Below, one piece after another: positions 2,961 to 58,575 of a stretch of 64,000 bases of DNA (positions are counted from its first letter, which is position 1; each line of letters begins with the position of its first letter). The DNA is from Zasmidium citrigriseum (lineage: Eukaryota; Ascomycota; Dothideomycetes; Mycosphaerellales; Mycosphaerellaceae). The position numbers and the translations under genes were made by a program. The notes under the pieces were generated by a model that saw nothing but the letters and a program-made list of their open reading frames with translations, did no database searches and was not told the origin of the DNA. The DNA is taken from NCBI GenBank assembly GCA_002786025.1, contig NHNW01000064.1, positions 155,027 through 219,026 on the forward strand, in the 5' to 3' direction.

Positions 2961-4563
2961 ATGGCCTCTCGCTTGAACTTCGTCGCCCAGCTCGCGCTGT
3001 CAGTCCTCCCCAGCCTCGCCCTTGCCGGACCCTGCGACATCTACAAGGATGGCAACACCCCTTGTGTGGCTGCTCACAGCCCTGTCCGAGCCCTTTATGA
3101 CTCCTTTGATGGATTCCTCTATGAAGTCAGGCGAGGCTCAGACAATCACACTATGCCAATCGCACCTTTGCACGCCGGCGGTGTTGCCAACTCAACCGCC
3201 CAGGACGACTTTTGCAGTGGAACGACCTGTGTGATTGTCACCATCTACGACCAGTCCGGCCACAACAATCATCTTAATCAAGCGCCGGGAGGTGGTGCTG
3301 CTCAAGGTGAGATGAGATCGAGAGAACTTGGGTGCTTTACCATGTACTGACCTCATTCCAGGACCAAACCCAGGCGGCTACGATGACCTTGTACTTGCAA
3401 CTGGAGCTCCAGTGACTGTCAACGGCAGCCGAGCATATGGCGTATTCATTCAGCCTGACTCGGGATACAGAGTCGACAATACCAGTGGTGTCGCTACTGG
3501 AGATCAACCAGAAGGGATGTACGCTATTTTTGACGGCACACACTATAATTCCCAGTGTTGCTTCGATTATGGCAATGCCGAAACCACCAACACCGATCCT
3601 GGATATCCAAATGGTAATGGTCACATGGAGGCGATCTACTTCGGCACCGGTGATGGCAGTGGACGGGGCACAGGATCGGGCTCTGGTCCTTGGATCATGG
3701 CAGATCTGGAGAACGGTCTCTTCTCTGGTGAAGACCCTGTCAAAAACCCTGCTGATCCAACTGTCACATATCGCTTCTTGACGGCAGTGATTAAGGGTGA
3801 ATCCAACCACTGGGCAATTCGTGGCGGAGACGCAACATCTGGACAGGTCACGACATACTACGACGGCCCACGTCCCAACGCAACACATTACAACCCAATG
3901 AGCAAAGAAGGTGCCATCCTCCTGGGAGTTGGCGGAGACAACAGTGACGGCGCACAAGGAACATTCTACGAAGGAGTCGTTACCTCCGGCTTCCCTTCCA
4001 ACGAGACTGAAGAGCTCGTGGCCATGAACATCAAGCAGGCAAATTACCAGGTGACTTCCATCACAAGCGGCCCACCCGTCAACGTCGGCTCCTCAATCTC
4101 TTTCCGTGTTACAACGCCCTACTTCAATACCCGCTACCTCACTCACAACGGCACTCTTGTCTACACCCAAATCGTCTCCAACTCCAGCGACTCCACCCTC
4201 AAGTCAGCCGCATCCTGGAATGTCAAAAGCGGCCTCGGCAACTCCGCCTGCGTCTCGTTCGAATCGAAAGACCAGCCCGGCAAATACCTCCGCCATGTCG
4301 AGGATCCGAACAACGAGTTTGGCATGTCCGTCGACTCGGACGATGGCACGAAGCTGATGCATGAGGATGCAACGTACTGTCCTCAAGTCGGATTGAACAG
4401 CCCGAGTAACAATTTGTTCCGCAGCTGGAATTTCCCAACCAGGGCCATTCGCCATTATTATAACTACTGCTACATTGCGCAGAATGGTGGACCGAAGAGT
4501 TTTGATGATCCGGCTACGTACAATGATGATGCTTCTTGGTTTGTTGGGAGTAGCTTCGTCTGA
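2961..4563 (+). CDS. Secreted alpha-L-arabinofuranosidase, GH54 with CBM42 (abfB type)
   Basis: Exons are 2961-3306 and 3362-4563, with a 55-nt phase-1 intron (GTGAGA..CCAG); the product is 515 aa, close to the usual size of the family. Residues 1-22 form a signal peptide ending LALA, so the protein is exported. The GH54 catalytic domain follows: the vicinal Cys-Cys pair (C181-C182 in SQCCFDYGN), the segment ADLENG with E232 as likely nucleophile, and GGDNSDG with D308 as likely acid/base. These three sites keep the spacing I recall for the Aspergillus kawachii AbfB structure (C176/C177, E221, D297). From about residue 350 the CBM42 arabinose-binding domain runs to the end. The enzyme would release arabinofuranose side chains from arabinan and arabinoxylan. 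A TGA closes the frame at 4561-4563. It lies next to another secreted glycan-related gene on the same strand. Confidence 0.95.
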
Positions 4564-7808: not shown

Positions 7809-8225
7809 GGAGATCAAGAAGGGGCCGTTGAACCCAAGGACCTTGACCTTGAGCAAGACGACATGGAGAACGCATATGGTGGAAACTTAGTGACGTATTA
7901 GTTTTTGGGATGGTAGGGCGGGTTTGGAGCGATCGAGCATCGAGCACCTTAGCCAGCGAGGTCCCCGCAGTGTTGAACTGAAGTATTCCATTCTACGCAG
8001 TCACGCTGATTCATGACATTCTCTTTATCGATTGGCGAAGCTACTTTGAAACAGCTCAGTGAGAATTCAGATGTGGATTTGGGTCAAAATTCGTTTTGTG
8101 GCTGCCAGCAGTCAGGCAGCCAATTAACGAGGGCGGTCGGCATGTGATTGTGGCTGGTGCGTCGTTCGAATCTTCACCACGGACTCCACACAGACTACAA
8201 CTTCTCAGCACCGCAAATACCAACA

Positions 8226-9110
8226 ATGTCGCGTGTCGTGAACTCGCCCAACCCACCTGATTCCGGCAAGCTTCCATCGCCCAGCATGGCCTCCCTTCTC
8301 AAGAGCGTTGGCCCACAGGCCGACTCGCCCGCCAGTCCCGCCGACCCATCAACTTCAGCATCAAACATCCCAGACGATGCCGAGTCCGTTGCCGCTCAGA
8401 AAGTTCTCAGAACATACGAGCTTCTCGAACAAATTCTCCTCCGCCTACCGATCTCTCGAATCTACGTGCTGCAGCGCGTCAACAGCAGGTGGCGGGACGT
8501 CGTCAAAGACTCGAAGGCTCTGCAGAGCAAGACGTTTCTCATTCCCCGTGGTCCACCTGTGGAGCCAATGCAGCCTAGTGTCATCAACAACTCGCGCAAG
8601 ACCTACGAGTTCCGCGGCATGAAGCTCTCGCCTATGCTCAGGATCGGCTATGGTCTCGGACAGTACCACATTCTCAAGGCCATTGGAGGCGACTGTGAGG
8701 CAATCACCGCCGAGATCGTTCTTCGCGCCTACATCGATGTCCCATCAGGCGAGAACACTCTTTCCGCAGACGTCGAACTCCACTTCTCAGCCCTCAATCA
8801 CAGCAAGCACGAATCCTGGATGGCCGTACCCATCACCAACCCGCCGATCACTGAAGTCTACATGCAAAGCAAAGCTACACGCTTTGGGAAGATGTATCGT
8901 TGCGAGAAGGGCTTCACAATGGGCCACATCTATGAAACACACAAGCAGTTCATCGAGGAGGCTTTGCGCGAAAAAGGCATTTCCATCGGATGTCGGCAAG
9001 TCGTCGCTGGCTTCTCCATCATCGTGCCAACCAAACCTAAGGACTTGGCTATTGGATCTTACACGCCTCCGCTGACCTTCATCAAGCGAGTGATGGAAGA
9101 CGCGGAGTAA
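8226..9110 (+). CDS. F-box protein, family A copy 2 (294 aa)
   Basis: A single exon, exactly the same length as copy 1. A Ser/Pro-rich N terminus of about 60 residues precedes the F-box (residues 63-100: YELLEQILLRLP, VLQRVNSRWRDVV). The C-terminal block reads SWMAVP, NPPITEVYM, CEKGFTMGHIYETHKQF. The reading frame is open upstream to 8148 without an ATG, so 8226 is the first plausible start. It is the closest relative of copy 1 in the cluster, judging by these blocks. Confidence 0.85.
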   Translation: MSRVVNSPNPPDSGKLPSPSMASLLKSVGPQADSPASPADPSTSASNIPDDAESVAAQKVLRTYELLEQILLRLPISRIYVLQRVNSRWRDVVKDSKALQSKTFLIPRGPPVEPMQPSVINNSRKTYEFRGMKLSPMLRIGYGLGQYHILKAIGGDCEAITAEIVLRAYIDVPSGENTLSADVELHFSALNHSKHESWMAVPITNPPITEVYMQSKATRFGKMYRCEKGFTMGHIYETHKQFIEEALREKGISIGCRQVVAGFSIIVPTKPKDLAIGSYTPPLTFIKRVMEDAE

Positions 9111-12720: not shown

Positions 12721-13326
12721 TCACCCACCAGGCCCCCCATAATTACACACCGTAATCCACGGCGTGCTCGGCCAGCCCACCACCCCACTCGGACAATTCA
12801 CAGTCGCACAACCCACCCTCTCCGTCCCCTTCCACACGACCTGGGAAAAGTGGCCCCAGTGTTCGAAATCCGACATGTCGGGTTGCGCTTCGCCGTAGTA
12901 GGAGGAGTAGTAGGGGAGTTCGTTGTTGTACCATTGGTCGGAGATGGAGATGGAGATGCAGGTGTCGCTGTTGCCGAGGGCGATGTTTTGGCCGTAGCCA
13001 CCTCCTCCTATGCTCCTACGAACAGTAGCGTTAGTATGGGTTGTGTGGGAGATTGGGGGATGGGAGGAGTACGTGTTATGAGCGAAGGTGCAGACGTTCG
13101 CCCATTCTGTTGCTGAAGCGGCGAGGTTGTCGTCCCAGGCGAGATCGGAGGCGGAGTGGTTTGCTCGATGGGCGTTGTGTGCTCGGAGGGCTGAGGCGAT
13201 GTAGTCGAATTGGCGGAGCTGTAACGGCGCAGCGAGGGTTCGGGGCGTGAGCGTTAGGAGGAACGTTAGGAGGGCTGGGAGGAACATGGTGAGTTTGATG
13301 AGGGCGTTGGAATAGTGCGGTGTCAT
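12721..13326 (-). CDS. Secreted CAP/SCP (PR-1-like) protein
   Basis: Exons are 13326-13073 and 13015-12721. The 57-nt intron (13016-13072) has a perfect TACTAAC branch site and TAG end; it is frame-neutral, so the frame stays open if unspliced. The spliced product is 182 aa. The signal peptide covers LLTFLLTLTPRTLAA; an internal ATG at 13287 would start right at its core. The CAP domain is clear: ALRAHNAHRANH, LAASATEWANVCTF, GYGQNIALG, WGHFSQVVWKGTERVGCA and the closing C-NYGGPGG, with six Cys as in the family. CAP proteins of this kind bind sterols and lipids and are exported during plant or host interaction. Splicing restores a family-like spacing between the FAHN and GYGQN blocks. Confidence 0.9.
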   Translation of the reverse strand: MTPHYSNALIKLTMFLPALLTFLLTLTPRTLAAPLQLRQFDYIASALRAHNAHRANHSASDLAWDDNLAASATEWANVCTFAHNTYSSHPPISHTTHTNATVRRSIGGGGYGQNIALGNSDTCISISISDQWYNNELPYYSSYYGEAQPDMSDFEHWGHFSQVVWKGTERVGCATVNCPSGVVGWPSTPWITVCNYGGPGG

Positions 13327-14094
13327 GCTGCTGGTGGTGAGACATCTTATACTGGCATCTTCGGATTAATGGACGGTGATATTGTGTGGCAAGCCGACGT
13401 CGATGGTCGGGCGAAGTCGACGGAGTCCGTTGCAGGACGTTGTGAAAGAATTTGGGTCGGTCAACGGTTGAACCACAAGGCTGACCTGTAGTCAACAGTT
13501 GCAATTCGCAGTAACTTCAGGATCGTCGGGTCTACGAAACACACAAGAGGCAGCAATTGATCGATCGTAGCCGATAGTTGCGAAGAGACTGATCTGGGAC
13601 GTGACATGTTATGCAGTCGCTGCTTTCTTGGTTGGAAGAAGAGTTGTGAGACGAGGCTGGAAAGCCGAACTGTTCCGAAGCCGATACCCATGGAATGCTG
13701 GTACCGACAACGGCTTTCCAAACATTGACGAAGTCCCGAGATCAGCGCTCGCACTATTCGTTTGACTTATGACTGGTTCCATGAGGAGGCTAGGAGTAAT
13801 GCTGGAGAGGACCGATGCCAGCCTCGTACTGGATTTCCTGGAAACAATCACATGCGCGACCGCGACGTATGTCGTGAGAAGATGAGGTTACATTATTATC
13901 GACGACGAGGCTGGCAGGTAATGTGAAAATGAAAGGTAGCTTGGTCGAGTTGCAATTCCCAAAGTGCATCGTCGCTAATCTACGCCAGCACCAGTGCAAC
14001 CCTGTGTAATGCTGCAAGCCAGCTGAAGTCTTGACTTTCCATGCCATGCCAAACGCCTGCACACATTTGAATCATGAGAGTCCGCACTTTCGTC
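13327..14094. other. Intergenic region, nothing recognised
   Basis: The stretch contains the promoter of the CAP gene and the 3' flank of the acidic-protein gene. Short frames on the minus strand lack features. No repeat or RNA gene was seen. Confidence 0.4.
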
Positions 14095-21030: not shown

Positions 21031-21906
21031 TCAGGTGTCTTTCTTATCTTCCTCTTCGATTTCTTTCATAACCCTCCAATACTCCTCTCCCCACTCCCTT
21101 CCCTTGATCCCCTCCGGCTTCGTCCAATTCAAATACATCTCCAAATCCACAGCCTCCCGATCCCTCCACTCAACCAACTGCCTCCAATCTCGACACTCCC
21201 TCACAACCCCAAAGTCCGGAAACGGATGCTCATTATCCTCCACCCACTCATACGTGATCATCCCGCTATCCGCCGTGCAGAGGAGATGCTGCATCAGCAT
21301 GTCGGTGCAGTGCTGCAGGTGGATTGTTTCGAGCGCGGGCCGCCCAGCGAGGCCAGAGTTGCCGGCAAAGGCGGCTTTACGAAGCATGTTGAGGCAGTGG
21401 ACTTGGTGGAAGAAGTCGAGGGCGCCGACGTAGGCGTCTTCGCCCATGTGCCAGACGGCATCTTCGAATTTGGCCACGGTGGAGGGGTCTTTGCCCATCT
21501 TGCGAATCTGCGCTGCTGTGAGGGGAATGGTGCGGATGTGTTCGAAGGAGTCCCAGGCTGCTCCTGCAACTGGGTCGGAGGGGAGGCCGCGCCAGGGCGA
21601 GGGATCGGGGCCTGGGAGGAGGGTGCCGTTGAATTTTGTGGGTTGCAGGCGGATGGTTGTGTCTTCGAGGAAAGGGGAGTAGATCGAGGTGAGTCGGATT
21701 GCGTCTTGGATCGAGATTTTATGGGTGAAGGATATGGCGAGCATTGACAGGGAGACTAGGAAGAGGAAGATGTTCGCGATGATTGCGGCTGTCCATCCGC
21801 CCCAACGTCTTCTTGAGCGCTCGTCGATTGGTCTTGCTGGACCGCCGAGCAAGGCTTCTGTCGATTCGTTGTCAGCAGCGCATTGGTCGTTCTTCTCGTT
21901 GCCCAT
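21031..21906 (-). CDS. UstYa-type DUF3328 oxidase, partner of the adjacent repeat precursor (291 aa)
   Basis: The chosen start at 21906 gives MGNEKNDQCA; the frame is open to 22089. A cytosolic N terminus with a basic stop (DERSRRRWGG) precedes one membrane segment at about residues 39-60, as in the family. The two hallmark motifs are intact: HQVHC at 167-171 (in FFHQVHCLNMLRK) and HLQHC at 196-200, followed by the LLCTADSGMITYEW signature. UstYa-type proteins are membrane-anchored, probably copper-dependent oxidases that install oxidative cross-links in fungal ribosomal peptides such as ustiloxin and phomopsin. The gene stands head to head, 593 bp apart, with a Kex2-type repeat precursor. 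There is no premature stop, and length is near the family norm. The chemistry on this precursor is inference. Confidence 0.9.
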   Translation of the reverse strand: MGNEKNDQCAADNESTEALLGGPARPIDERSRRRWGGWTAAIIANIFLFLVSLSMLAISFTHKISIQDAIRLTSIYSPFLEDTTIRLQPTKFNGTLLPGPDPSPWRGLPSDPVAGAAWDSFEHIRTIPLTAAQIRKMGKDPSTVAKFEDAVWHMGEDAYVGALDFFHQVHCLNMLRKAAFAGNSGLAGRPALETIHLQHCTDMLMQHLLCTADSGMITYEWVEDNEHPFPDFGVVRECRDWRQLVEWRDREAVDLEMYLNWTKPEGIKGREWGEEYWRVMKEIEEEDKKDT

Positions 21907-22499
21907 TGCGAAGACCTCGAGAGAGTCGTTTTCTGCAGCGATGGTGAAGACGGCAGCCAGAGCAGACGACGATGCCAAAGCTGAAAACCAGAGAGCCCCG
22001 CTACACGATTGGTCTTCTTGCCCTGCAGATACTACCTCTTGGCAATGAACGGCTACTGAAGGCTTTTGTTGATATAAGGCCACCAGCAAGAGTTAATGTG
22101 ACCACTAAGCTTTATCCTAACCACAAGCAGCAGATATTTAAAGCTTCCACTGGATAAGGCCTCCAACTACAGCGCACTCGAAGCTTAAGGACCATCCACA
22201 GCTAGCTGCTTGCGGCAGGTGAGAGACACGGCATGCTGGATTCATCACGCCCAACATCAACCACTGGCCAGAGCGAGTTTCCATCCTTTGGACTACTCAT
22301 GTCATGTAACCCGGCTATCAACACGAAGCTCTCTAGAGTGTCGTGTGACAGCCGATACGATGCTGACCTTCCCAATGCGGATCGCGAATGGCAAGGTCGT
22401 TGGCGATTCAAATGGAGACCGCAGCTGTCGTGCGTGACAATCTCAGCATTTGACTTCTCCAAACCGCAACCTCTCTCTAAGTCAGACTCGTCGCTGAAG
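21907..22499. promoter_or_regulatory. Bidirectional promoter of the UstYa / repeat-precursor pair
   Basis: 593 bp separate the two divergent start codons and contain no supported gene. The arrangement allows co-regulation of the oxidase and the peptide precursor. No convincing TATA box or palindromic operator was picked out by eye. Confidence 0.5.
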
Positions 22500-23509
22500 A
22501 TGCAGCTCACTCAACTCACCGTTGCCGCCATTCTGGCCGCTGCTGCCAACGCAACTCCAGTCGCAAATCCAGGTATGACGAAAGCCGGCCCCTCTTGTCA
22601 AGGCTTTGATTGACAAACATCACAGGATGGTCATCGCCAGACGCATACACCATTCCTAAAGCCCGCGATGCTGAGCCGAAGTGGAATTCGCCAGACGCAT
22701 ACACGATCCCCAAAGCCCGCGATGCTGAGCCAAATTGGAATTCTCCAGACGCATACACGATCCCCAAGCGAGCGCCTGGCTGGTCGTCGCCCGACGCATA
22801 CACCATCCCCAAGCGTGAAGCGAAGTGGAACTCTCCAGATGCATACACCATCCCCAAGCGTGAGCCCGGCTGGTCGTCGCCTAACGCATATACCATTCCA
22901 AAGGCTCGCGATGCCAAGGCGGAGCCTCTTTGGTCATCCCCAGATGCCTATCAGATCAACAAGCGCGAGGCCAAGTGGAACTCGCCAGATGCATATACGA
23001 TCCCTAAAGCTAGAGATGCTGAGGCTGAAGCCGAGCCCAAGTGGAACTCTCCAGACGCCTACACAATCCCGAAGACCCGCGACGCCGACGCCCAGCCCCT
23101 TTGGTCTTCGCCTGATGCGTATCAGATCAACAAGCGCGAGGCCAAGTGGAATTCGCCAGATGCGTACACAATCCCGAAGACCCGCGACGCTGAAGCCGAA
23201 CCTCTCTGGTCCTCTCCCGACGCATATCAAATCAACAAGCGCGAGGCCAAGTGGAACTCCCCAGATGCCTATACCATTCCCAAAGCCCGCGATGCTGAAG
23301 CCGAGCCTCTGTGGTCCTCTCCGGACGCATATCAGATCAACAAGGACCGAGACGCTGAGGCCGAGCCAAAGTGGTCTTCGCCTGATGCGTACACCATTCC
23401 AAAGAGGGAGCCAGGCTGGTCTTCGCCGGATGCGTATACGATCCCAAAGGAGAAGCGGGAGCCGATGTTCTCTGGTGAGGGTGGGTTTGTTATTGAGGCG
23501 AAGGAGTAG
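22500..23509 (+). CDS. Secreted multi-core peptide precursor (Kex2-processed, dikaritin-like RiPP candidate)
   Basis: Exons are 22500-22572 and 22626-23509, with a 53-nt phase-1 intron; the product is 318 aa. Exon 1 encodes only the signal peptide (MQLTQLTVAAILAAAANA) and a few residues. Exon 2 encodes 16 tandem units with core W-[S/N]-S-P-[D/N]-A-Y-[T/Q]-I-[P/N]: seven WNSPDAYTIP, four WSSPDAYTIP, one WSSPNAYTIP, four WSSPDAYQIN. Units are separated by basic sites (KR in eight places counting KEKR; KAR, KTR or KDR in eight) followed by EA, DA, EP or AP dipeptides, the pattern cut by Kex2 and trimmed by a Ste13-like dipeptidyl peptidase. Each core contains Y-x-I, as in the ustiloxin (YAIG) and phomopsin (YVIP) cores that UstYa enzymes cyclise. 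The divergent neighbour is such an enzyme. The C terminus is FSGEGGFVIEAKE. An alternative role is a secreted signalling or pheromone peptide. Confidence 0.88.
22626..23452 (+). repeat. 16-unit coding tandem repeat of the peptide precursor
   Basis: Units of about 15-22 codons each hold one ten-residue core plus a processing spacer. Most of the length variation is in the spacer (for example KREAK versus KARDAEAEAEPK). From unit 7 to 14 the [T/Q]-type cores largely alternate (QIN, TIP, TIP, QIN, TIP, QIN, TIP, QIN), suggesting duplication of two-unit blocks. Codon third positions differ between units, so the array is not a very recent expansion and the cores are held by selection. Confidence 0.9.
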
Positions 23510-43386: not shown

Positions 43387-44527
43387 ATGAGCGGACCAGG
43401 AGCCGGCTTCGAGTACAAGCCCAAAGACGTGTCCTGGAACAAGCGAGACGCTCTGCTCTTTGCCATCAGCATTGGAGCCGACGTCGATGAGCTTCCGCTG
43501 GTCTTTGTAGGTTCCATCTTCGAAATATAGGAATTATATGGTTGACATTGCCGAAGGAGCAAGATCCCATCTTTCAGGCCTTCCCAACATATGCCAATAT
43601 TCTGCGTATGTTTGCAATCAAACCATTGCAACATCATTGGAGCTGACATCACCGTCAGCCTTCAAAGGCACCTCGCAAGATGTCATCGACTTCGGCAGCA
43701 CGGCTTTCTCGGAGCGCATCCCCGGCGTGCCAGAGCTGAGACCAGAGCGGGTCATCGACGCTCACCGTGCAATGACCTTCTTCAAGGCTCTTCCTGCCAC
43801 ATCTGAGGGCAAAAGTCTGAAGCTCCAGCGGAAAGTCATCGGTGTCTACGACAAAGGCAAGGCCGGGACGGTGTTGGAAACCGAGACTCTTCTTAGAGAC
43901 AAGAATACCAAGGAAGCGTATGTCAGTCTAGTGGGAAGCGCTTTCTTCATCGGACAGGGAAATTGGGGTGGTCCCAAAGGTTTGCCATCATCGCACTTGT
44001 ATGATAATGAGAACGAGTGCTGACTTCATTGCAGGCCCCAGTCCAGCTAGCTTCCCGCCTCCCAAGGACCGCCAGCCAGATGCGATTGAAACGCACCAGT
44101 CGACGACGCAGTCGCCTCTCCTCTACCGGTGAGACTATCCTATCCTCATCCCTCCGTCTGTGGCTGACTCCACCGCAGCCTCAACGGCGACTACAACAAC
44201 CTGCATGTCATCCCCGGACCTGGCAAGTCCATGGGTTTCGGCGGCGCCATCATGCATGGCCTCTTCACCTACAACGTCGCTGCACACAGTGTGCTAAAAG
44301 CCGTTGGCGGATCGAATCCAGCGAACTTGAAGCATTTCTCGGCGAGGTTTCAGGCACCTGTCAAGCCGGGCGATAAGCTTGTCACGGAGATCTGGAAGCT
44401 GGGAAAGTATGATGGGGAAGGATTTGAGGAGATCAGGTTCGTGACTAGGGGGGCTGGTGGAAAGATTGTATTGAGTAATGGGAGGGCGTTGATTAGGACT
44501 GATGGTGGAAGTTGGAGTAGGTTGTAG
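43387..44527 (+). CDS. Peroxisomal MaoC-type enoyl-CoA hydratase 2 (310 aa)
   Basis: Five exons: 43387-43506, 43557-43605, 43659-43979, 44035-44128 and 44179-44527; introns 50, 53, 55 and 50 nt. The N-terminal hot-dog half starts with WNKRDALLFAISIGADVDE and FQAFPTYANIL, as in the hydratase-2 part of peroxisomal multifunctional enzyme 2. The C-terminal half has the hydratase-2 motif YRLNGDYNNLH with the catalytic Asp (D199) and His (H204), followed by GFGGAIMHGLFTYNVA. The usual Pro after Asn in the motif is replaced by Asn. The C terminus is SRL, a canonical PTS1. It would hydrate trans-2-enoyl-CoA to (3R)-hydroxyacyl-CoA in peroxisomal beta-oxidation, downstream of acyl activation by the divergent ligase. 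All splice junctions were fixed by frame and motif continuity. Confidence 0.9.
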
Positions 44528-45730
44528 GGATAAGAGTAAATGAGGTACCATTGGGCCGATGATACAAAACCGCTCGCTATCATTATGGAAACGGTAGGTT
44601 GTGGAAGGTGGGTTCTAGGGAGAAATGGTCCCTCCTTGCCGGCGAAATGTATGATCTCTTTTTGACATTGGTGAGATCTGAGACCGCTCAAATACCGTTG
44701 CATCTGCTTCACGAAGGAGCGGGACCACGAGATTCCAAAAGAGATTAAGCGACGGCTAGCTACATGCAGTCAAAGTGACATTCTGAACTCTCAGCACGGA
44801 AGCTACGGGGGTAGCCTAAACGTTAGTTTGTGTCATCTCAAGTAATTACCTAACTTTTCGTCAAAACTGCTTAACTACTTAACTGCTCAAGTGAAATCTG
44901 CCTAAAGCGGCTTAGCGTCTCGGGACTTTCTATTCTCCAACCTTACCTCTCGACTTTAATAAACCTTCGTCCTATTGTAGTTTTACTATAAAGTAAGATT
45001 CGTACTTCGTAGAGAAATAGGCTAGGGTTATAATTAGGCTATTATTCTTAAGAGTAGGGATATATTAGACCTACGCCTAAGGAAGAGCGAAGGAGAGAGC
45101 CGTTAGAGACTATAATTAAAAGCTTACTATTATCGCTACTCGATTTACTCGCTTAGAATTACGCTATCCTATACTTAGTATAGGTTAGGTAGAGGATTCC
45201 CTATTTAGTTCTTCCGCGAAGTAAGGGCCCTACTTCGTAGAAGAATAATAATAGGGAGTAAAGTAAAGGAGCGTATATAAATAGGGATAATAGAAGCTAA
45301 GAAATTAAAAAGGCTACTCTTTACTTATAGACTTCTAATTTCCTTCTTCCTTCTATATACCCGCTTGTAATAACTATCTTAAATACTATCTATATTATAA
45401 TAGTTACTATAAATATACTACTACTACTACCTTACTACCGCCGCCTACCTACTATACGCGCTCGTCGTTTTGTCCTATCTATTATCGAGGACAACGAAGT
45501 TAGTCTTCTATCTCTTAAGTAGCGTCGAGCGAGTTTAGAGCTAACTAGTAGTATAGGGTATTACTATTAGCCGCGCTAATAGCCTCTTCTATAGCGAGCT
45601 TCGCTCGTAGTTTAATAAGAATAGCGATTATTATCCTAGCCTTAGTCCTCGCGAGCGTACTTTTACGCGCTAGGCCTTAGCCTTTACCTATACTCGCTCT
45701 ATTAGTATATCTTCTTCTAGCGAACGATTA

Positions 45731-46110
45731 AACTTTAGACGATAGTATACTAACTTTAATATAGGCTATCTCTTCCTCGCTCGCGCTTACGCCTATATTA
45801 CCGCCTATTATCTAGCTACTCGTACTACTCTACTTACTAGTACTCGCGCTTATCTCCTCGCCTACTCCTTTAGTACGTATTTAAATATTAGACTTTAGAC
45901 GGTAGCTTACTAATATTAATATAGGCCGTAATCTACTCGCTCGCGCCTATACCTATATCGCTACTCGTCGTTTAGCTACTACTCGTCGTTTTACTAGTAC
46001 TACTAGCGCTCTTCTCTTCGGTAAGTCTCTAACGACTACTTAAACTTTAAAGGATAGTAAGCTAATATTAAAGTAGTCCGTCGCTTATAGGTACGCGCTC
46101 GTAAGCGTAG
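45731..46110 (+). repeat. Degenerate tandem repeat, three units of about 155 bp
   Basis: Units begin at about 45733, 45891 and 46043, each opening with a form of AAACTTTAGACGATAG and running into TAATATAGGC-type sequence. In the + frame the opening translates as TL-D-S-L-L-I, read through RIP stops. It looks like an internally repeated domain of a decayed coding sequence. Confidence 0.5.
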
Positions 46111-46129
46111 AGCTACTACTACTACTACT

Positions 46130-46930
46130 CCTTCGCTATCTCTATCGGATTTCGATAATAAAATCGATAACTTATAAGTCTTCTAGTCCTCGCTCGATCT
46201 ATAGCTAGACTAGTAGCTAATATATAGATATAGCTTTATACCCGACGATAACGACTTTATAGGCCCTAAGCCTAACGATACTACTACTACTACTACTATT
46301 ACTAGCTAGCCTACCGTCGGCGATCCCTCTAGTTCTAGTCTAGTCGCTAGCCCTATCTCTACCTCCGCCGTCCCTATTATAGCCCTAGTAGCCTCTAAGT
46401 CTACTACCGCCGCTACCGCTATACTACGCCCTATTAGTTAGCTAAAGGGGTTAACGAAGGTTACTCTTCGTCGCCCCGAGTAGGAGAGTAAGTAGTAGTT
46501 AGTCCCTAAGTATAAGTAGGGTAAGCTAGAGGACTAGAAGAAGTCCGATAAGGATAGGCGCTACGCCTAGTCTAAGGTAAGTAATTTAGATCCTAAGCTA
46601 GCTATAAATCGATAGATCGCTAACGTTTCGTAGACTAGCCGCCTTATAGAGGGAGATAGTATTCCGCGGGCTACTAGGCCTTACGAGAACTACCGTCGTA
46701 ACGGTACGTAGTGCTTAGTACTACTAGAGGGTAGTAAATATATAAAGTACGTCTTCGACGTTAAGCTCTATAAGCTATAGATAGCTATTGTTTTAGGTTA
46801 CTATATAGCGTCTATCTACTATACTATATCTATATACTAGGAGCGTTTTACTATAGGCGTTTTACTATATTACGTCTATCTACTAGGTCCCTATACTTTA
46901 GGCTAGGCCTTAGAGCCCTATAAATAATAA
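46130..46930 (+). pseudogene. RIP-decayed ORF of unknown family
   Basis: A single + frame (codons in phase with 46301) reads as protein through many TAG stops: a Ser/Thr/Ala-rich linker, then LKGLTKVTLRRPE, KKSDKDRRYA, SNLDPKLAINR, TSRLIEGDSIPRATRPYENY and KYIKYVFDVKLYKL. Stops sit where Gln or Trp would be expected. The basic middle and ordered C terminus suggest a DNA- or RNA-binding protein of a mobile element, but no family was recognised. Confidence 0.5.
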
Positions 46931-47057
46931 AAGCTTACTTCGTCTATATCTTCTTAGTTTCCTACCGTCTTAACGTCGATATCTCGTCTTAATCGCCTAT
47001 CTTAGTTAATTAGTATTAACTCCTAAGTATAGCTTCGAGTATATATCTAATTACTAG

Positions 47058-47098
47058 AATTCTTCTACGAAGTAGCGTATATATATCGTAGAAGAATT
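47058..47098. repeat. Example hairpin copy
   Basis: Arms AATTCTTCTACGA and TCGTAGAAGAATT are perfect reverse complements over 13 bp with a 15-bp AT-rich loop. Confidence 0.85.
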
Positions 47099-47307
47099 AC
47101 TTATATTTAGAAGATATAGCTTACGTATACTACGAATCGATAGTAGTCGTACTCCTTATTCTTAACTTACGTATATATTTCTAAGTACTAGGATTTTTCT
47201 ACGAAGTAGCGTATATATATTATAGAAAAATTACTTAGCTTTAAAGCCCTTAAATTAAATCCTTATCCTACGTATACCGCGAGTCGACTAAGGGACGCTA
47301 TCTTCCT

Positions 47308-47480
47308 CTTTCTTAACCTCTAGCCTAGTAGTATACTTCTTCTTAACCTCTAGCCTAGTAGTATACTTCTTCTTAGCCTAATAGTATACTTCTTCTTAGC
47401 CTAGTAGTATACTTCTTCTTAACCTCTAGCCTAGTAGTATACTCCTTCTTAACCTCTAGCCTAGTAGTATACTCCTTCTT
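47308..47480. repeat. Tandem repeat, six units of 22-28 bp
   Basis: Units are variants of CTTCTTAACCTCTAGCCTAG plus TAGTATA. Some lack the AACCTCT segment, giving shorter units. Low-complexity coding relics or a minisatellite are both possible. Confidence 0.8.
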
Positions 47481-48808
47481 CTTAACCTACTTCGCTAGAA
47501 TAGTAACGCTAAGTAGTAGGAAGGTTTAGACGTCTAGTATAGCGATATAGATATAGGTATAAGACGCGGGCTAGTTAAGTCGTTATAAGTTAAGACGAGA
47601 TAGACGATTCGCGACAGCTAGAGTATCGAATCCTTCTACGAGATAATAGTATACTATACGTACTAATAGGGATCCTTATAGCTTAGTAGTATATAGAGTA
47701 TTAAATTCTCCTACGAAGTAATAGCCTAGCTTCGTAGAAGAATTAGTAACTTTACTAAAGAAACGGAACTTAGGTATCTCTCGTATTAAGTACTTCTATT
47801 AGTAATAGTACTATCTAATATACCTTTTACGGGCCCTACTACTTACGTCCGCGCGATTAGTAATATCGGAGAGATAACGTTAATTACTAGGTATTAGGCC
47901 GCTATATAGATACTCTTCTAGGGGTCCTGCCGTTAAGAGTTGTTATTCTAGCGTTATTAGGCGTTCTAGCTTTATTAGGCGTTCTAGCTTATTAGGCGTT
48001 CTAGCTTATTAGGAATACCTAGCGCTCGTAGATAGTTTCCCGCTCGAGTCTCTAATATATTAGAAGTTATTTTAAAGCGGACTAATAAGATATAGGGGTA
48101 TAGACGTAGTAGGTTAAAGATATAGAGGGTATAGAGGTACAGAAGTCCTAGATACGGTAATAAAGCTATAGTAGATAAATAAGCCGCTAACGCGTAGTAA
48201 AGCGTAAGTTACGCTATAGAGATCCGATATACGCTATATCTAGTACGACGTCTACGGTAATTCGGGAGATCTTAGCCTAAGGTACTAGGGTTACTTAGGG
48301 TAAACATATTTACTAGGGTTAGGGACTATAAGGTTAGTATACTATTAATATAGCTTAGAGGTAGCTCGCTTTTAAAAGATAGACTAATTAATCGATTTGA
48401 AAAATTACTATATAGTTAAGGAAGCTAGTATAAGAAGTAGAGTGTTTAGGGGGTAAGTCTTTAATTTTACTACGAAGTAGAATATATACTTCGTAGAGAA
48501 ATAGATAGCTAAGCTAGGTATTAAAGGACTTCTAGGGAAGAAACGTAAGGAGATAAGTTAGATAACGCTAAAAATAGTAGTAATCGACGAATCTCGTAGA
48601 TTTATATTAATATTAAGTAACTATAGTTAAAGACTAACGAAAAGGGGCAAGCTAGTTAAAGAAACGATTTAACGACGGCTATACTAGCGGTTAGGGAAGA
48701 TAGCTATACTCTAGCTACGAAGACGGCTCTCTTACTACTAAGATAGCTCTAAAGGCTTAATATAGCTACTATCTAGCGGTAGGGAGAGCTCTAGTACTTA
48801 AGATACTT

Positions 48809-48892
48809 AAGATCTACTACTATCTAGCCTTAGGGGCGGCGAGATACTCGAGATCTACTACTATCTAGCCTTAGGGGCGGCGAGATACTCGA
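48809..48892. repeat. Exact tandem duplication, about 41 bp
   Basis: Two copies of a unit starting AGATCTACTACTATCTAGCC and ending GGCGAGATACTCG, nearly identical. Identity in a heavily mutated block implies the duplication happened after, or late in, RIP. Confidence 0.75.
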
Positions 48893-49289
48893 TATACTAT
48901 AGTCGCTTTATAAAGAGCGGCTACTAAGACTCTAGCCTAGGAAACGACGACTATATACGAGCCTCTATAGGTTAAGGTATAGTATATTCGTATCGTATAT
49001 ATATATATATAGCTCGCCTAGCGTAAGACGCTAACCGCTAAGTATAGAGACTAGCTAGCGGCTAGCTCTAAAATTAAGAAATAAGTATAACTTTAAATAT
49101 TATTTAATTAGTACCTATACCTATACCTATACCTATACCTATATCCGTCTATACGCTACTATACTACCTATTATATTATATTAGTATTATTAGTATTAAA
49201 CGCCTACTTCTATCTCGCGATTATTACCTCTAGCCGCCTTACTAGAGTACGTAGACTAACTACTATAGGCGGTTACTATCTATACGCCT

Positions 49290-49560
49290 CTAAAGGAAAT
49301 ACGAAGTAGTAATTTAGTCTATCCTAGTACTACGCCTCTCTAGGTAGATCCGTCTCTATATAGTTATCCGTAATCGGTAGATATAAGTACCGCTATTCTA
49401 GCGAGAAGCGCCCCGTATTATCTAGTTAATAGTAATACTCGAGATTAGCGTCGTCCTTCGTACTAGCGACCTTAACGAATCGATAGTAGATAGTAACCTC
49501 GTAGACGGAGTCGTAGTAGTCTACGATACGATCCTTCGTATACTCGAGCTATATTAAATT
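49290..49560 (-). pseudogene. RIP-decayed ORF fragment of unknown family
   Basis: On the minus strand a frame reads LEYTKDRIVDYYDSVYEV, YYRFVKVASTKDDANLEYYY, then LYLPITDNYIETDLPREA and LNYYFVFPLEAYR, interrupted only by TAG codons. The content is clearly protein-like (aromatic-rich, ordered), but I do not recognise the family. Confidence 0.5.
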
Positions 49561-50627
49561 AAATTAGTATCCGCTAAAGTAAGACGATAGATAGGACAAC
49601 TAACCTAGTACTACGGATACTTATAGCGCTTATCGTCCTTATACTAGAGCTTAAGTATCTTAGGCTCTATTAGGAATAAGCTCTTTAAAGTACTAGCTAG
49701 AGTATTCGAGAACTTAATATCCCGCGAGAGTAACTTACGGTTAGTTATTATCTAGTATAAGTTAGTACGGTATCTAGTACGGTATCTACTATAGTAGCGA
49801 TTAGATATACTACTTCGAGGAGAGGGTTAGTATAGGAGTATAATTTAAAGTATAATTAAAGGGCTATATATTTAAAGGAGGTAGTTATTACTATTATCGT
49901 TAGTATCGTAGGGAAGAAGAGGAAGAGGTTAAGAGCCTATATATATAGCCGGCTCCTACCTCTATATATACCCGAATTAATATACCGCGTAATTAGGTAG
50001 TTACTAGTACTAAGGGTACTCGTAACACCTATTATAGGTTTAGGCTACTATTAAGGTAGCGTCCTTATAAAAGCTAAGCTATATATAATACCCGGGTATA
50101 GTATTACCGCTATTAGAATACTAGTAGCTATACGAATCGATCTAAGATATACTATCTATCGAGAGATATTAATAGCTCGAAGTAAGAAGGAGTATTAAAT
50201 TCTTCTACGAAGCGATAGCCTAGCTTCGTAGAAGAACTTAATCCTCTTCCTTACTTCTCTAACCCTATATTCGTCGGAGGGTACTATACTAATCTCTAAT
50301 ACGTAGCGTTACCTAACGAGTAATACTACTAGCCGTAATAGTAAACGATAATAGTAGATAAAGCTTAAATAATACCTAGGAATATAATACTCGAATTTCT
50401 CTACGAAGGTATCTCTACGACTTTATAGAAGAACTCGAGCGTTATAAGGTTAGGTAAAGTACTATAGAATAGGTCGAAGAGAATAAGATAAGATAGTAAT
50501 CGTATTTAGAGAAGTATATATATATTATGTCTAGTTCGGCTATTACTACTTCTTTATTAACCTCGTCTCGCGATTAGACTCTAGTACTTACTATACCCGC
50601 TATAACTTCTTCCCTTTCTATTACTCC

Positions 50628-50705
50628 TACTACCCGCCCTCCTACTACCCGCCCTCTTACTAACCGCCCTCCTACTAATCGCCCTCCTACTAAATACTAT
50701 ACTAC
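50628..50705. repeat. Tandem repeat of CCGCCCTCCTACTA-type units
   Basis: About four units of 17-18 bp built on ACCGCCCTCCTACTA with RIP-type C/T differences between them. Probably a proline/threonine-rich coding repeat before decay. Confidence 0.7.
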
Positions 50706-51035
50706 TAAATACCTTCTTATAGAACGTCCTCTATATCTATATCCGCTATTAAGGGGGTATAGCTCGATCTAGTACTAGAATCGAGAGCTATTAGGGGTAG
50801 TTACTACTTCTAGCGTAGTTCTTATTAGCGTCGATAGATATAAGATATCTAGTTTAACTAAGGTAATCGATACCCTATAGGCGGGAGTATAGCGGGGATA
50901 GGATCTTCGTTATAAGCGAACGAGATTTTAGTTTATTCGACGATAGTATCTATTATATTAAGTAGAGGCTTTAGCGGCGGCTACTTTATCTTCTTACTCT
51001 TCTTAAAGTTACCGCCTCGCTTAGTAGAGCTAGAG

Positions 51036-51275
51036 TCTTTAGATAGGGCTATCTTCGAGCCTATAGATAGGGCTATCTTCGAGCCTATAGATAGGGCTAT
51101 CTTCGAGCCTATAGATAGGGCTATCTTCGAGCTTATAGATAGGGCTATCTTTAAGCCTATAGATAGGGCTATCTTCGAGCCTATAGAGAGTATAGTCTTC
51201 GAGCCTATAGAGGGTATAGTCTTCGAGCCTATAGAGGGTATAGTCTTCGAGCCTTTAGAGAGCGTAGTATTAAAG
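51036..51275 (-). repeat. Ten-unit 24-bp tandem repeat (former 8-residue protein repeat)
   Basis: Units are variants of TATAGATAGGGCTATCTTCGAGCC. The last four are a subtype with GAGAG/GAGGG and TATAGTC. On the minus strand 24 bp equals eight codons reading GSKIALSI in phase over all units, so this was probably a repeated peptide in a coding sequence. Units vary mainly at single bases, with length strictly kept. Confidence 0.8.
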
Positions 51276-53649
51276 CTACCTAAGTCTTAAGCCTTTCTAG
51301 TAGGCGAGTCCTAAATATTATATAGCCTATTAGGAAGCGGCTTAAATATAGGCGGTAGCTACTTCTCTATCCTATTACTCGAGCCTCTACTAATAGTAGG
51401 CTCTTACTAGATATCCTTCTCCTACTTAATATTCTTCTCCTACTTAACTAGTAGTTTCGGATTTCTTATAAGAATTTCCTTTATATTAAGGAGTACCTCC
51501 TCTTTGTCTAAGTCGAGGTCGATCGGTTATACGGCGGAGCTACTACTATTAGCTTTATACGATTGTTAACGAGATTTCGAACGAGGGTAGTTATCGCCTT
51601 AGCTTACTAGGCGCGGTCTCTTCTTTTTATTAGTAGCTAAGGTCTCGACGCTATCTAGGATATTCTAATCGCTATTCGGTAGCTAGTTTAGTAGGGGCGG
51701 TATTAGTAATAGATAGTTTATACTAACGCTATTAGTAAAGAACCTAGAATCGTCGTTAATAAAGAGTATATTATCTACTAGCTTGTCGCTATTATAGTTT
51801 ATCCTAGGAATAGGGCTCGGTATCTAGAATTCTCGCGGAGGTAAAGAGGTAGTCTCGACTACTAGTAATATAGTATTTATAGGCTCGACTATCGACGATA
51901 TATTAGCTAGATAGGCGGTAACGGTAAATAATACTACCCTAATCTTATATTTAGAATACTTAACCCTACTTCCTAGAGCCGTCTCGAAAGGGAGAAGTAT
52001 CTTATTAAGGCTATAGGCCTCGCGGTTAGATCGCCTTAGGCGAAGGGGCTCTCTTATTACGCTATCGAAATCGGTAAAGATAGCGTGTCGTATATATCTA
52101 GGCTCTACTACCTAGCTATTAAAGTCCTCCTATACGTCCTTATAAAGAATATCGAGGAGTTTAGGCTCGCGCTATTCTAGTTTTACTATTATAATTTCGT
52201 TCTCTATATCGTCGAAGTAATCTATTACCTAGTAGGCCTTATCTTCTTTCTAGGGCTCGCTATACTACTCCTTTACGATACTAGTCTATATATCTAGAGT
52301 AGTCGTCGTCGGAACTTTCTAAACTTTAACTATTAAAGTTATTATCTTCCTCTTCGCCTTAGACTATAATAGAGCGGCTAGGGCGGAGGCCGTAGAAGGT
52401 ACTATCGACGAGCGATCTACTATAGAAGGTATAGAAGAACTACGATAGGTAGTACTTCTAGAGAGCGCTAAAGTAGTCTTCTTTTTTAGCTTCTTCTTCT
52501 ATAGTACTATAGGATTAACTCTAGTATAGGCGGTAGACTAGCTATAAGACACCTTATTTATATTAAGCTAGTTTTAGGCTCGCCCTCTATAGAAGGATTA
52601 AAAGCCTTTCTCTATACTTAAAGGAGTCCGAGATACTAGACTAGGTCTTAGGAGAGCTAGTAGATTAAACGGAGGTAGGGATAGGGATAGACTAGGGGAA
52701 GATAGGCTAGAAGGGGAGGATAGGCTAGTAGGAGAGAATAGGCTAGGAGGGCTAGGAGGGGAAGACGGGCTAGTAGAAGAGGATAGGGCCGTAGGAGAGG
52801 GTAGGACTCGAGAGGTCTTACTTAGGCTAAACTTTAGATTTATCGCTCTATATATTCTATATAAACGTTTCGTCTTATCGTAAGGAAGACTATCGTTAAT
52901 AGCTATCTCGTAGAAAGGCGTCTACTTAGCGACGGGTATAATACTAATAACTAAATTAATAGAGATCGAAAGATAGGGATCGAAAGATATTAATACGTAA
53001 GGGACGGAAGCTATAATTATAGTCTACGTTCGAACTTACGAGAGGGTATATATATATAGTAACTACGTTATTAGTTTAAGGGTTCCCTAGCTATAGCGAA
53101 TACTATAACCGTACAATTACGAGGTTATAAATAGTATCGATCCGGGAGGGCGAACTCTAGAAGGGTATTCCTACCGTAGGCGTTAAGTAAGTTAGTAGCT
53201 TTATTACGGAGGTAGTAGTAGGTACGAACGTAGAGCTTCTCTAGTCTAGGCTAGTCGCTAGGCTCGCCGCTATAAAATTATAGTAGTAGACCTATAGCCT
53301 CTAATCTCCTTTTATACTAGTTAAGTAACTTAGGCGGTAAGTAAGCGTCGAGATCTATCGATACGGATTAGCGGCTATAATATAAACGGAGCTAATTAGT
53401 AGTAGGGAGAGGCGATAGACTTAGATAGAGCGAAGTTAAGTGAAACGGTAAGGGTAATAAGCTTACTATCCGCCTTAGTACTAATAATAATTTAAAATTA
53501 TTAGGTAGTAGTCTATCGATAATAACTCGAGCTATCTAGTAATTCTAGTTATTTACCTAGTAGTATTAAGGGATATATACGATAATAGGTCGGAAGAATA
53601 TACTAAATTCTTCTATCCTTCCTAGCTATTACTAGATAACCGGATCTTT

Positions 53650-54710
53650 AACGTTAATTCTCTACCTATAGAACTAGGTATCTTCTAGCTATAGGTAGTC
53701 GTAGAGTATTTTAGGTATCCCTAACGGACCTCTAGCCTCCTCGTATTACTTACGGATAGTATATTTATTCTACTAGTCGATAAACTCGTATATAATATAT
53801 CGAAGGACTAGTATATAGATAGTTAGCTACGCGACTCGATAGGCCTTAAGAGCGCCGTTATATTTACTAGATTTAACTATAAAGTCCTAGTAGTCTCTCT
53901 ATCGGTTTATTATACCCTTTACTATCTCGCCCTACTAGTACTTAATTGTTTAATTGCCCTTACTCGAGGTATACTAGAAACAATCGTCGAAAGTTAGTTC
54001 TCTCCCCTCTATAAGCTCGCGTAGTTAAAGATAGGCGTCCGCTAGTATTAGTATTTCTACTCCTTAGTTAGATCTTATAATAAGAGGGATATATCTAGCC
54101 TTATAGGTAGTAATTATATAGTACGTAAAGGTAGAGAACTTCGTCTTAGCTAGGTAGCTAATATAGTACTAGAGAATCTTTCGTAAGAATATATCGATAT
54201 AGGTATAGACTATAATACTAAAGTACGGATAGATCTTATAGAAGGCGTCGATCGACCCTATATAGCCTAAACCTTTTACTCGCGGGCGTATACCTTAGGG
54301 ACGATAACGTTTTCCTAGGCGCCGCGATATAAACTCGTTTTATACCTTTACCTTTACTATTCGGTATATACGATCTCTTCTAATAAGGTACTATTTTCGT
54401 CGAAGTATCTTAGTAAGCTCGCGATATCTAACGTCTTACTTTGTACTATAGCTAAGTACGTAATTTAAGGCTTCGTTAATAGTATTATATACTTCGTCTA
54501 GGTCGTCTTAGTATATATATCGTCGATATAGCCCTATCTCGCGTCGAAGCTTAGCTAGCTAGTATTTTAATATCTCGAACCCGTTATACTAGAGTATCTT
54601 TAATATCTTTTCGTTAGTAATCTATATCTCCTAGAATAAATCTATTATCCTAGAACGTAGCTAATCTTCCCTATACTCCCTCTAACGAGGGTATATAGAA
54701 ACACCCTAAT
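53650..54710 (-). pseudogene. RIP-killed integrase-core (DDE) transposase
   Basis: One minus-strand frame is readable through TAG/TAA stops over about 1 kb without frameshift. The N-terminal part (EKILKI..NGFEILKY, LAKLRREIGLYRR) resembles the helix-turn-helix start of the integrase-core proteins abundant in fungi. The core follows: GYIGSIDAFYKIYPYF (first Asp), IPLIIRSN.GVEI where the second Asp should lie, LADAYL.LRELIEGR, then YTSSKGN.TIKY before GEIVKGIINR, matching the NQRIE-WW block. The second catalytic Asp is now Asn and the catalytic Glu is Lys; both are G-to-A changes after T, as RIP makes on the opposite strand. Family assignment is from motif memory, not a search. Confidence 0.7.
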
Positions 54711-57079
54711 ACCGTAATCGCTAGGTAAGCGTTAACTATAATATTAGAAGGCCCTCTATACGGAGGTCGCCTAGTACCTACTTAATAGTAGTACTAGCGT
54801 AAAGGCTAAGTTCGATTTCGATACGCTAGGTATCTAGTTCCTCTTATAGGCGAGGTATATTATCGTTCTTAAACTATTCGTATTAAAGAGAAAGGAGGCC
54901 TTCGAAAGTAGAGCTTAGTAATAGTTACTAACTCTTAGTAATCTAAAGGGCTAGAAATACGGAAACGCTAGTAGATATTTAAAACTTTTAGTTAATCTAC
55001 GAAGTGTACTAACTTCTAGTTCCGCGGCTACTTAGAAGGATCTTCGTCTTATATATAGACTAAGTTAGCTTATCGAGAGGTACTTACTCGCTCGCTTATT
55101 ATCGCCGTAGGTAGTAGATTAAGTTGTAATTATAGGCTATATTAGGCAGGCTAGTAGGTTTATTATTCTTCTACGAAGTACCGTAGCGTAACGCTACTAC
55201 GACGAGTCGCCTAGGCCGCTAAGGAGGTACGACGTCGCCTAGATAAGGATCTATATAGCTCGAGTTAGCCTATAAGAAGGGCGAGGCTTCGAATTTATCT
55301 ATAAAGTAAGAAACGTACTTCGTAGAAAAATTAAAGACTATAGCTACTTCTCTCTCCCTTTAATAGCTATTAGTAGTAGTAGCGAGTAGGCCGTCGATAT
55401 TCTCTAATATACTAGACTAGGAATATATATTACGAGGGCGATAGTAATACTAGCGTATATACGTTAATTAGCTAAAGAATAAACGACGCTAGTATATATA
55501 CAAAAAAATTATTCTTCTATAAAGCGATCCTATAGATATCTGTTAGCGCCTATTCTAACTACCTAATAAGTAGATTTAGTATATTTATATTATACTAAAA
55601 GGTGTTTAATTATAGGTATTATCTTCGACTTCGTAGAAAAATTAAAAAATCGGATATCTACTAGCGCCTAGGTAGATTATACAAGTTATTAGAAGAGTAC
55701 TTTTTCTACGAAGTAGCGCTCTTACTTCGTAGAAAAATAGCTTTCCCGAAAACTCTATATAATATCCTATCTTAGCTCTACTATTAATAAATATATTACT
55801 ACTACTACGTCTTTCTATTAGGGCGCTATTATTCTTCTACGAAGCGACACGTATACGTCTAAATCGAATTCGTAAGCCTTACTAACGAGTTTCCTCTCTA
55901 CCGCTATCCTCCTACTACTCTTACTACTAAGTCCCTCTATCGCCGCTAAGTCCCTCTATCGCCGTTTCTATTACTCTAAGTCCTTCCTACTAGCCTAGGT
56001 ATTATAGAAGAGGAGGATTACGCTTAAAGAGGAGGGTTATTTAGCTACTTAGTATAATAAGTACTTCGTAGAGGAAATACTTACCTCTACTACTATAATT
56101 ATATACTTATCGACTAGGCCTTAGCTAGGGAAATATATATAGTACTACTATCTAGTATTAATACCGAAGTAATAAGTAGATAGGCGGAACGGGAACCTTA
56201 TATATAGGCTATAAGGATATAGGGATCTAAGGTTTAGTATAAGATCCTCTTCTCTACTAGGTATCGTATCGACTAGCTAGAGCTAGGAAATAATACCCTT
56301 CGCTACGATAAGCTAGAGACCGAAGCTAGAGGCCGAGAAGGGTAGTATAGATTATTAGTATACTATAGAGGATAAGGTTTAGTAGTATTCTTATAAGTAA
56401 GTAAAGTACTAATCTTATTAACTACGAGCGTTAGTTCCGTAAGTAAACTAATACCCTATAGGGGACCTTCGAGCTATATAGTAATATAGAGGTATAAAAG
56501 GGCTAAGGGATATATAGCGCTAGTTATTAATAACTAGAAGTAACTTAAGACCGAAGTCTTAAGAGTCTAATCTTACGAGCCTTAGATATCTTAAAAGATA
56601 AGCCTAAGAGTTAGAACTCTATAACCGACGGTATTAGATAACGACTAATATATAACGCCTCTTTTATAGCCGAGTAAGACCGTATAGTAAATAGTGCCTC
56701 TCGTAATAATAGTACGGATAGTTTAACGCCTCGATACTAGAGTACTATTATAACGGGTAGAGCGTAGCTAGTAAGTATCGTAAGTAGTAACTAATATAGC
56801 TAAAGGTAGGTAACCTAAAGGCGACTCGTAGGTAGGTACTAGTACCCTATTAACGACTTAATAGACTCGGACAAACTAAGTAAGAAGGATAGTAATACTT
56901 TTATAGTTAGTAGCGCCTACTAATCTACTAGAATCTTATCGATTCTAGTACTAGGTAAGAGGATATATTACGCCGTAGCCGGCGGCTAACTAAATAAGAA
57001 GGATAAGGTATAAGGCCGACTAAGTAGAATCTTATCGATTCCGGATAGATAGTAATAGTACTAAGTAAAGGAAGCGAAG

Positions 57080-57330
57080 CGATCTAGCGATATCTACCTT
57101 TCCTAACCTTTATACTAAAGTATAAAGCGGTCTAGCGTCTACTACCTTTCTAGCCTTCGTAGAAGCTAATAACCTAATAGACGAAGCGGTCTAGTAGTCT
57201 TCGCCTTTCCTAACCTCTACTAAAGTAGAGTAGTCTAGCGTCTACTACCTTTCTAACCTTTACTAGGTGCCTAGTTTTACGTCGCGTAGCTCGATAGTAC
57301 CTAGTTTTACGTCGCGTAGCTCGACGAGAT
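57080..57330. repeat. Complex tandem repeats (about 45-bp and 34-bp units)
   Basis: Four loose units share CGGTCTAGCGTCTACTACC and CTTTCTAACCTTTACTA. They are followed by two nearly identical copies of a 33-bp unit with CCTAGTTTTACGTCGCGTAG, at 57270 and 57300. Confidence 0.65.
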
Positions 57331-58404: not shown

Positions 58405-58575
58405 TCTCTTAACGAGCTACTCCTTCGTCTCGACTAGTAGTAGATTACCTAGTAATAGAGCTAGTAGTACTACTTATCTCTTAACGAGCTACTCTTTCCT
58501 CTTAACCGTATCTCTTAACGAGCTACTCTTTCGTCTCGACTGTATCTCTTAACGAGCTACTCTTTCGTCTCGACT
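58405..58575. repeat. Interrupted tandem repeat of TCTCTTAACGAGCTACTC units
   Basis: Four to five copies of a 28-29 bp unit (TCTCTTAACGAGCTACTC, TTTCGTCTCGAC) with one interruption around 58440-58475. Confidence 0.7.

Follow-up and report, generated by a model that had tools for sequence, protein, structure and literature searches.

A sixteen-core peptide precursor beside a divergent UstYa gene in Zasmidium citrigriseum: a probable two-gene, dikaritin-like RiPP locus

Introduction

The ether bridge of ustiloxin and phomopsin joins the oxygen of a Tyr residue to the beta carbon of an Ile. According to excerpts of PMC6514808, ustiloxin has the core YAIG and phomopsin carries a Tyr-Ile ether, UstQ, UstYa and UstYb are each essential for ustiloxin, and the four-gene cluster of asperipin-2a contains one UstYa homolog and lacks a tyrosinase. 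UstYa (DUF3328, PF11807) oxidases carry two HxxHC motifs (excerpts of PMC12048977), and the cores of the ustiloxin/phomopsin type have the published motif EDYXI in common (excerpts of PMC6339444). In the excerpted text of Umemura 2020 (PMC7329392), DUF3328 genes lie near 1758 of 7878 KEPs, i.e., precursors with a secretion signal and repeats between Kex2 sites, their frequency peaks at the position adjoining the KEP gene, and Tyr is present in 65.6% of the KEP repeats with DUF3328 vs. 38.2% of those without. Alpha-pheromone precursors carry a STE13 signature, consisting of XA or XP dipeptides that follow a Kex2 site, which is reported as absent from the precursors of ustiloxin/phomopsin and epichloecyclin in the excerpts of PMC6339444; the same excerpts give the published dothideomycete alpha-pheromone types as Cys-containing and PYGxPxG.

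Here we describe a locus of the fungus Zasmidium citrigriseum, found in a window of 64,000 nucleotides (the whole stretch of DNA that was analysed), in which a gene with a signal-peptide-like N-terminus and 16 tandem cores is transcribed divergently from an intact UstYa gene. We consider it likely that the two genes form a UstYa-type, dikaritin-like RiPP locus.

The precursor gene and its predicted peptides

The precursor gene (22500..23509, forward strand) encodes 318 amino acids in two exons. Exon 1 (22500-22572) begins with the ATG at 22500 and exon 2 (22626-23509) includes the stop codon at 23507-23509; the 53-nt intron between them (22573-22625) was chosen by enumerating GT..AG introns of 40-120 nt near the precursor start, and among the enumerated choices it is the only one with which all 16 cores are retained. 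A putative signal peptide of 18 residues (22500..22553) was assigned from hydrophobicity (residues 6-15, LTVAAILAAA, have a mean KD of 2.46 and are followed by A-N-A), its cleavage site after ANA being judged by eye. The 16 cores W[SN]SP[DN]AY[TQ]I[PN] and 15 spacers, seen in the translation and also detected as a tandem array, occupy 22628..23446 (+), and the C-terminal tail KEKREPMFSGEGGFVIEAKE with the stop codon occupies 23447..23509 (+). The gene product thus has the features of a KEP, with a secretion signal that is read from hydrophobicity. The original prediction had proposed 16 tandem units as well as a signal peptide and basic sites, and the spliced translation agrees with all of these. 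KR or KxR follows every core.

The cores comprise seven WNSPDAYTIP, four WSSPDAYTIP, four WSSPDAYQIN and one WSSPNAYTIP, and six of the ten positions (W1, S3, P4, A6, Y7 and I9) are invariant throughout. The cores are followed by the terminators KR (seven), KAR (five), KTR (two), KDR (one) or KEKR (one), so that a dibasic KR ends eight terminators and the other eight are KxR. Differences among the cores are mostly silent: pS is 0.773 vs. a pN of 0.130 (a ratio of about six), and pairwise differences fall on codon positions 1, 2 and 3 in the numbers 174, 159 and 651, all of which are descriptive figures to which no probability is attached, as the repeats have a common ancestry. This bias indicates that the amino-acid sequence was preserved while the DNA drifted. 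Within the 44.4-Mb genome the core pattern occurs at seven places, all of them inside the precursor gene, and exon 2 matches itself at 100% with no other full-length match. Besides this gene, a protein search of the same genome recovered one paralog and a single weak match (E 0.54).

Each of the 15 spacers consists of a basic site (KR or K[ATD]R), XA or XP dipeptides (30 of 30) and one residue [KNGL] before the next Trp, and all therefore show the STE13 signature known from alpha-pheromones. When residues were shuffled within spacers 100,000 times, the best outcome was 10 of 15 spacers and 22 of 30 dipeptides, the control preserving the length of each spacer, all 15 of which are odd. Note that, being products of duplication, the spacers do not provide 15 independent observations of this grammar. 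By eye, the stretch TP-VA-NP-G between the signal peptide and core 1 fits the same rule. The dipeptide register restarts directly after the R of K-x-R, and the KxR sites are thus probably cut too; KER and KAR also separate the units of a UstYa-linked candidate precursor on another contig (C119, see below).

Read in this way, the spacers predict 11-mers of the form [K/G/L/N]W[SN]SP[DN]AY[TQ]I[PN], such as KWNSPDAYTIP. The calculated linear [M+H]+ values are 1291.632 for KWNSPDAYTIP, 1193.547 for GWSSPDAYTIP and 1293.611 for LWSSPDAYQIN, with a calculated shift of -2.016 for one cross-link and a shift of -4.031 also considered. As a C-terminal K-x may persist after KxR sites, both 11- and 13-mers could be formed, the predicted 13-mer KWNSPDAYTIPKA having a calculated [M+H]+ of 1490.764.

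The UstYa neighbour and the rest of the locus

The UstYa gene lies at 21031..21906 on the reverse strand, is intact and intronless and encodes 291 amino acids (171.1 bits, E 4.2e-50), which is the strongest among the 43 UstYa matches listed for this genome, a number that is a lower bound and in which some matches are exons of one gene. It stands head to head with the precursor, and the start codons at 21906 (-) and 22500 (+) delimit a 593-bp intergenic region (21907..22499) common to both genes, likely a bidirectional promoter. From the 43 listed matches in 44.4 Mb, a randomly placed point would be expected to lie no more than about 1.2 kb from a UstYa gene about 0.2% of the time. The original prediction had named the lack of UstYa neighbours in related genomes as a finding that would speak against it; in the genome studied here such a neighbour is present.

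The protein has one N-terminal transmembrane helix (residues 40-58) and two HxxHC motifs, HQVHC at residues 167-171 (21394..21408, -) and HLQHC at residues 196-200 (21307..21321, -), whose residues H167, H170, C171, H196, H199 and C200 are invariant in 17 aligned UstYa sequences (the query and 16 of 21 homologs). The closest of these 21 homologs, obtained by protein search, is 72% identical; two proteins of Zasmidium cellare (61% and 58%), two of Pseudocercospora fuligena (52% and 50%) and proteins of Xylariales-type fungi (42-50%) are also found. The top-scoring paralog among the UstYa loci examined shows 32% identity over 195 amino acids. Searches of the PDB by sequence, with a single sequence or an alignment, gave no solved relative, and the AlphaFold model is poor (mean pLDDT 56). 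In prokaryote contigs, none of 26 pattern matches was confirmed as UstYa.

A Pfam scan covered 40 open frames out of the 214 listed in the window that reach at least 90 amino acids, and intron-split exons could escape it. It gave matches above the cut-off for UstYa, an F-box protein (8148-9107), a secreted protein of the CAP family (12724-13365, -), an arabinofuranosidase B (3316-4560, +) and an AMP-binding enzyme in two frames, all further matches scoring lower than the cut-off. These 40 frames included nothing recognisable as a methyltransferase, P450, peptidase, transporter or reductase, and none of the 22 tyrosinase (PF00264) matches listed in the genome is on the contig that carries the precursor (C110). 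As other tailoring genes were not recognised and a tyrosinase match is lacking on the contig, the locus looks like a precursor and a UstYa gene only.

The paralog and other UstYa/precursor pairs

The paralogous precursor (C95:91879-92280, -), found by protein search of the own genome, has 116 amino acids in the chosen splice form and 97-113 in alternative ones. It resembles the 16-core precursor in its signal peptide, in the phase-1 intron that closely follows this peptide and in a C-terminal WNSPDA-x-TIP-KEKRE...VIEAKE, the elements KEKRE and VIEAKE being common to both tails. Differently from the 16-core precursor, it contains a single copy of the core, WNSPDAFTIP-KEKRE followed by VIEAKE, in which Phe replaces the core Tyr, and its dipeptide grammar is partial, with XA/XP after one of four dibasic sites. 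Its other units are Cys/Trp- and Gly-rich (GCNARCWNW once, AGGGGRGGNW twice), and it is possibly pheromone-like. None of the 43 listed UstYa matches lies on its 295-kb contig. In a comparison of about 30 kb of that contig with the window and 10 kb of contig upstream of it, the precursor was the sole match. A Pfam scan of both precursors recognised no family. Because an aryl ether requires the Tyr oxygen, Phe in a paralog that lacks a listed UstYa match fits a Tyr-directed UstYa, in this single case.

Four further UstYa loci have a repeat-precursor candidate within 1.5 kb: C57:663k (DDVYH..GGII), C110:39k (YRPLVNVALPP), C68:261k (HDETYYYLK) and C119:168k (TDLLNTSSLPV). Together with the main locus, all five pairs are arranged head to head, and the repeat contains Tyr in four of them; these five were chosen by eye from the output of a repeat detector over 30 UstYa loci (L008-L037), some of which overlap or carry exons of one gene. 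The repeats of L015, L030 and L037 have no more than two [KR]R sites and were left out of the count, and the candidate in L023 is truncated by the end of its locus. Among the four further candidates, a signal peptide is visible only in that on C57, and the rest begin in an upstream exon or lack a signal peptide. STE13-like XA/XP follows some basic sites in three of them (4/8 on C57, 3/6 at C110:38k and 1/2 on C68), and the C119 candidate has no dibasic site. In addition, 17 of 76 KEPs homologous to STE13-type putative basidiomycete pheromones adjoin DUF3328 genes (Umemura 2020, PMC7329392, excerpts). The pairing of a STE13 signature with UstYa is, in view of these two sets of cases, not unique.

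Discussion

The new core sequences claimed by the original prediction have held up: five core strings that were tried do not occur in the main text (supplements aside) of the open-licence PMC papers searched, and no homologous precursor was found. A search of about 5.8 billion proteins with the complete precursor gave 3344 candidates and none at E <= 0.001, and an alignment search with a short form of precursor and paralog gave 1909 candidates and none at E <= 10. Since a protein comes into view in these searches only if its length is 0.55-1.75 times that of the query and it has exact words in common with it, and composition correction may mask repeats, a relative could be missed. The peptide thus looks new, and the type of system, a KEP next to a DUF3328 gene, is known; with 1758 such KEPs already counted, another pair is unsurprising.

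The link to dikaritins drawn by the original prediction stands in its general part, a secreted multi-core Kex2-type precursor beside UstYa, a context by which the dikaritin class is defined. The label phomopsin/ustiloxin-like is too narrow, as it is the Y-x-I spacing that is shared. As in UstA, PhomA and AprA, a signal peptide is followed by numerous short cores that contain Tyr and are flanked by basic sites, and UstYa is adjacent; the core sequence differs from these and has a long W-S-P part before Tyr. In contrast to ustiloxin and phomopsin, the cores read PDAYxI or PNAYxI instead of EDYXI, the spacers are of the STE13 type that the excerpts of PMC6339444 report as absent there, some of the sites are KxR, and the contig has no match among the 22 listed for tyrosinase; placement in that subgroup is therefore unlikely. 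One UstYa and no tyrosinase match on the contig of the precursor is an arrangement like that of asperipin-2a, a precedent that supports a RiPP reading of a UstYa-only cluster (PMC6514808, excerpts), although the locus here appears simpler than the four genes described there. Accessory genes, as known from dikaritin clusters, were not recognised at this locus among the 40 frames scanned.

That the locus is a two-gene RiPP system, which we regard as probable, is argued by several lines of evidence: the adjacency of a UstYa gene that is intact and has invariant HxxHC motifs, the head-to-head arrangement in five of five pairs of this genome, the published position peak of DUF3328 and enrichment of Tyr (Umemura 2020, PMC7329392, excerpts), the invariance of Tyr and Ile in 16 of 16 cores in spite of codon changes that are mostly silent, the spacer grammar that exceeds shuffles in 15 of 15 spacers, and the Phe in the C95 paralog. 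Counting against it are the STE13 signature, which is reported for linear alpha-pheromones (PMC6339444, excerpts), the lack of a tyrosinase match on the contig, of another tailoring enzyme, a transporter or a peptidase recognised in the 40 frames scanned, and of a precursor homolog in the searches above. The argument is also weakened in that the replacement of Tyr by Phe is seen in one paralog and that the spacers are not independent.

By analogy with known families, the precursor would enter the ER, where the membrane-anchored UstYa would oxidise the invariant core Tyr. The simplest cross-link would be an ether between the phenol oxygen of Tyr and the beta carbon of the Ile at the second position after it, in the Y-x-I spacing of phomopsin and ustiloxin, and Trp1 or another residue could be an alternative partner. 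A Kex2-type protease would cleave C-terminal to KR or KxR, the basic residues left at the C-terminus would be stripped by a Kex1-type carboxypeptidase, and a STE13-type dipeptidyl aminopeptidase would remove XA/XP dipeptides and halt at the residue before Trp, so that 11-mers, possibly minus 2H, would be secreted. The peptide may act as a signal, an antimicrobial or an effector.

The main competing explanation is a linear, unmodified secreted hormone or mating-type alpha-pheromone, with UstYa acting on something else. As in ascomycete alpha-pheromone precursors, XA/XP runs follow a Kex2-type site, KR or KxR, in every spacer, KEPs with this signature are rated good hormone candidates (PMC6339444, excerpts), and a paralog of related architecture lacks a listed UstYa match on its contig. 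Moreover, among the matches inspected elsewhere in the genome, none was recognised as a canonical multi-copy precursor of the WCxxxGxxCW or CxxxGQxCW kind. Scans of the genome with alpha-pheromone patterns gave 5 matches vs. 11 in the reversed control and, in another, 8 vs. 3. From the first scan, in-frame stretches at C13:718k, C60:136k, C83:803k and C94:214k contained no repeat precursor and the match on C111 had no open stretch of 25 amino acids; from the second, C60:136k, C85:260k and C104:84k (three of its eight places) contained none either. However, none of the 16 cores has a Cys, let alone the Cys pair, or the PYGxPxG (known in Pleosporales) of the dothideomycete pheromones published in the excerpts of PMC6339444, DUF3328 occurs within 15 genes of just 3 of 216 putative fungal pheromone KEPs (PMC7329392, excerpts), and UstYa is here the immediate divergent neighbour. 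We therefore hold a linear hormone to be unlikely.

Less likely still is a short peptide of the phomopsin/ustiloxin type, cut back to a short stretch that starts at Tyr (YTIP, YQIN). The Y-x-I spacing and, in YTIP, the Pro after Ile as in phomopsin would suit it, but the cores have DAYxI or NAYxI where EDYXI would be expected, no tyrosinase match is on C110 while UstQ is essential for ustiloxin together with UstYa and UstYb (PMC6514808, excerpts), and W1, S3, P4 and A6 are as invariant as Tyr, which would be odd for discarded residues. Finally, a structural or surface-coating repeat protein that releases no modified core peptides, for which secreted tandem repeats and Rep1 of Ustilago maydis, a KEP that yields peptides forming amyloid-like fibrils (PMC9769878, excerpts), could be quoted, is hardly credible in view of the adjacent UstYa and of a protease grammar that all 15 spacers follow exactly.

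Within the RiPP reading, the Tyr/Phe pair could tentatively, and with rather low probability, be explained by a STE13-processed linear hormone of the pheromone type that gained Tyr and recruited UstYa, giving a cyclised signal in the style of alpha-factor; the reverse, with Tyr lost after the loss of UstYa, is possible. If true, such a transition from pheromone to RiPP would be a concrete case of the linear-to-cyclic hypothesis of Umemura. Should the product prove to be cross-linked, one precursor would undergo both trimming in the pheromone manner and RiPP cyclisation, and the STE13 signature would no longer mark a linear peptide. The locus is of value in that it is seemingly minimal (one precursor, one UstYa and no tyrosinase match on the contig), comes with a natural Tyr-to-Phe paralog and has a readable protease grammar that predicts the masses of its products.

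Elsewhere in the genome, several pieces of UstYa genes surround tyrosinase pieces at C129:44247-51320, a candidate ustiloxin-like cluster; open frames with at least three [ED]YxI were absent from the loci examined, including C129:42747-52820. Beside the precursor/UstYa locus, positions 44000-64000 of the window are a repeat-rich, RIP-like stretch, in which long open frames are few, short tandem repeats are many and GC drops from about 0.55 to about 0.37-0.41.
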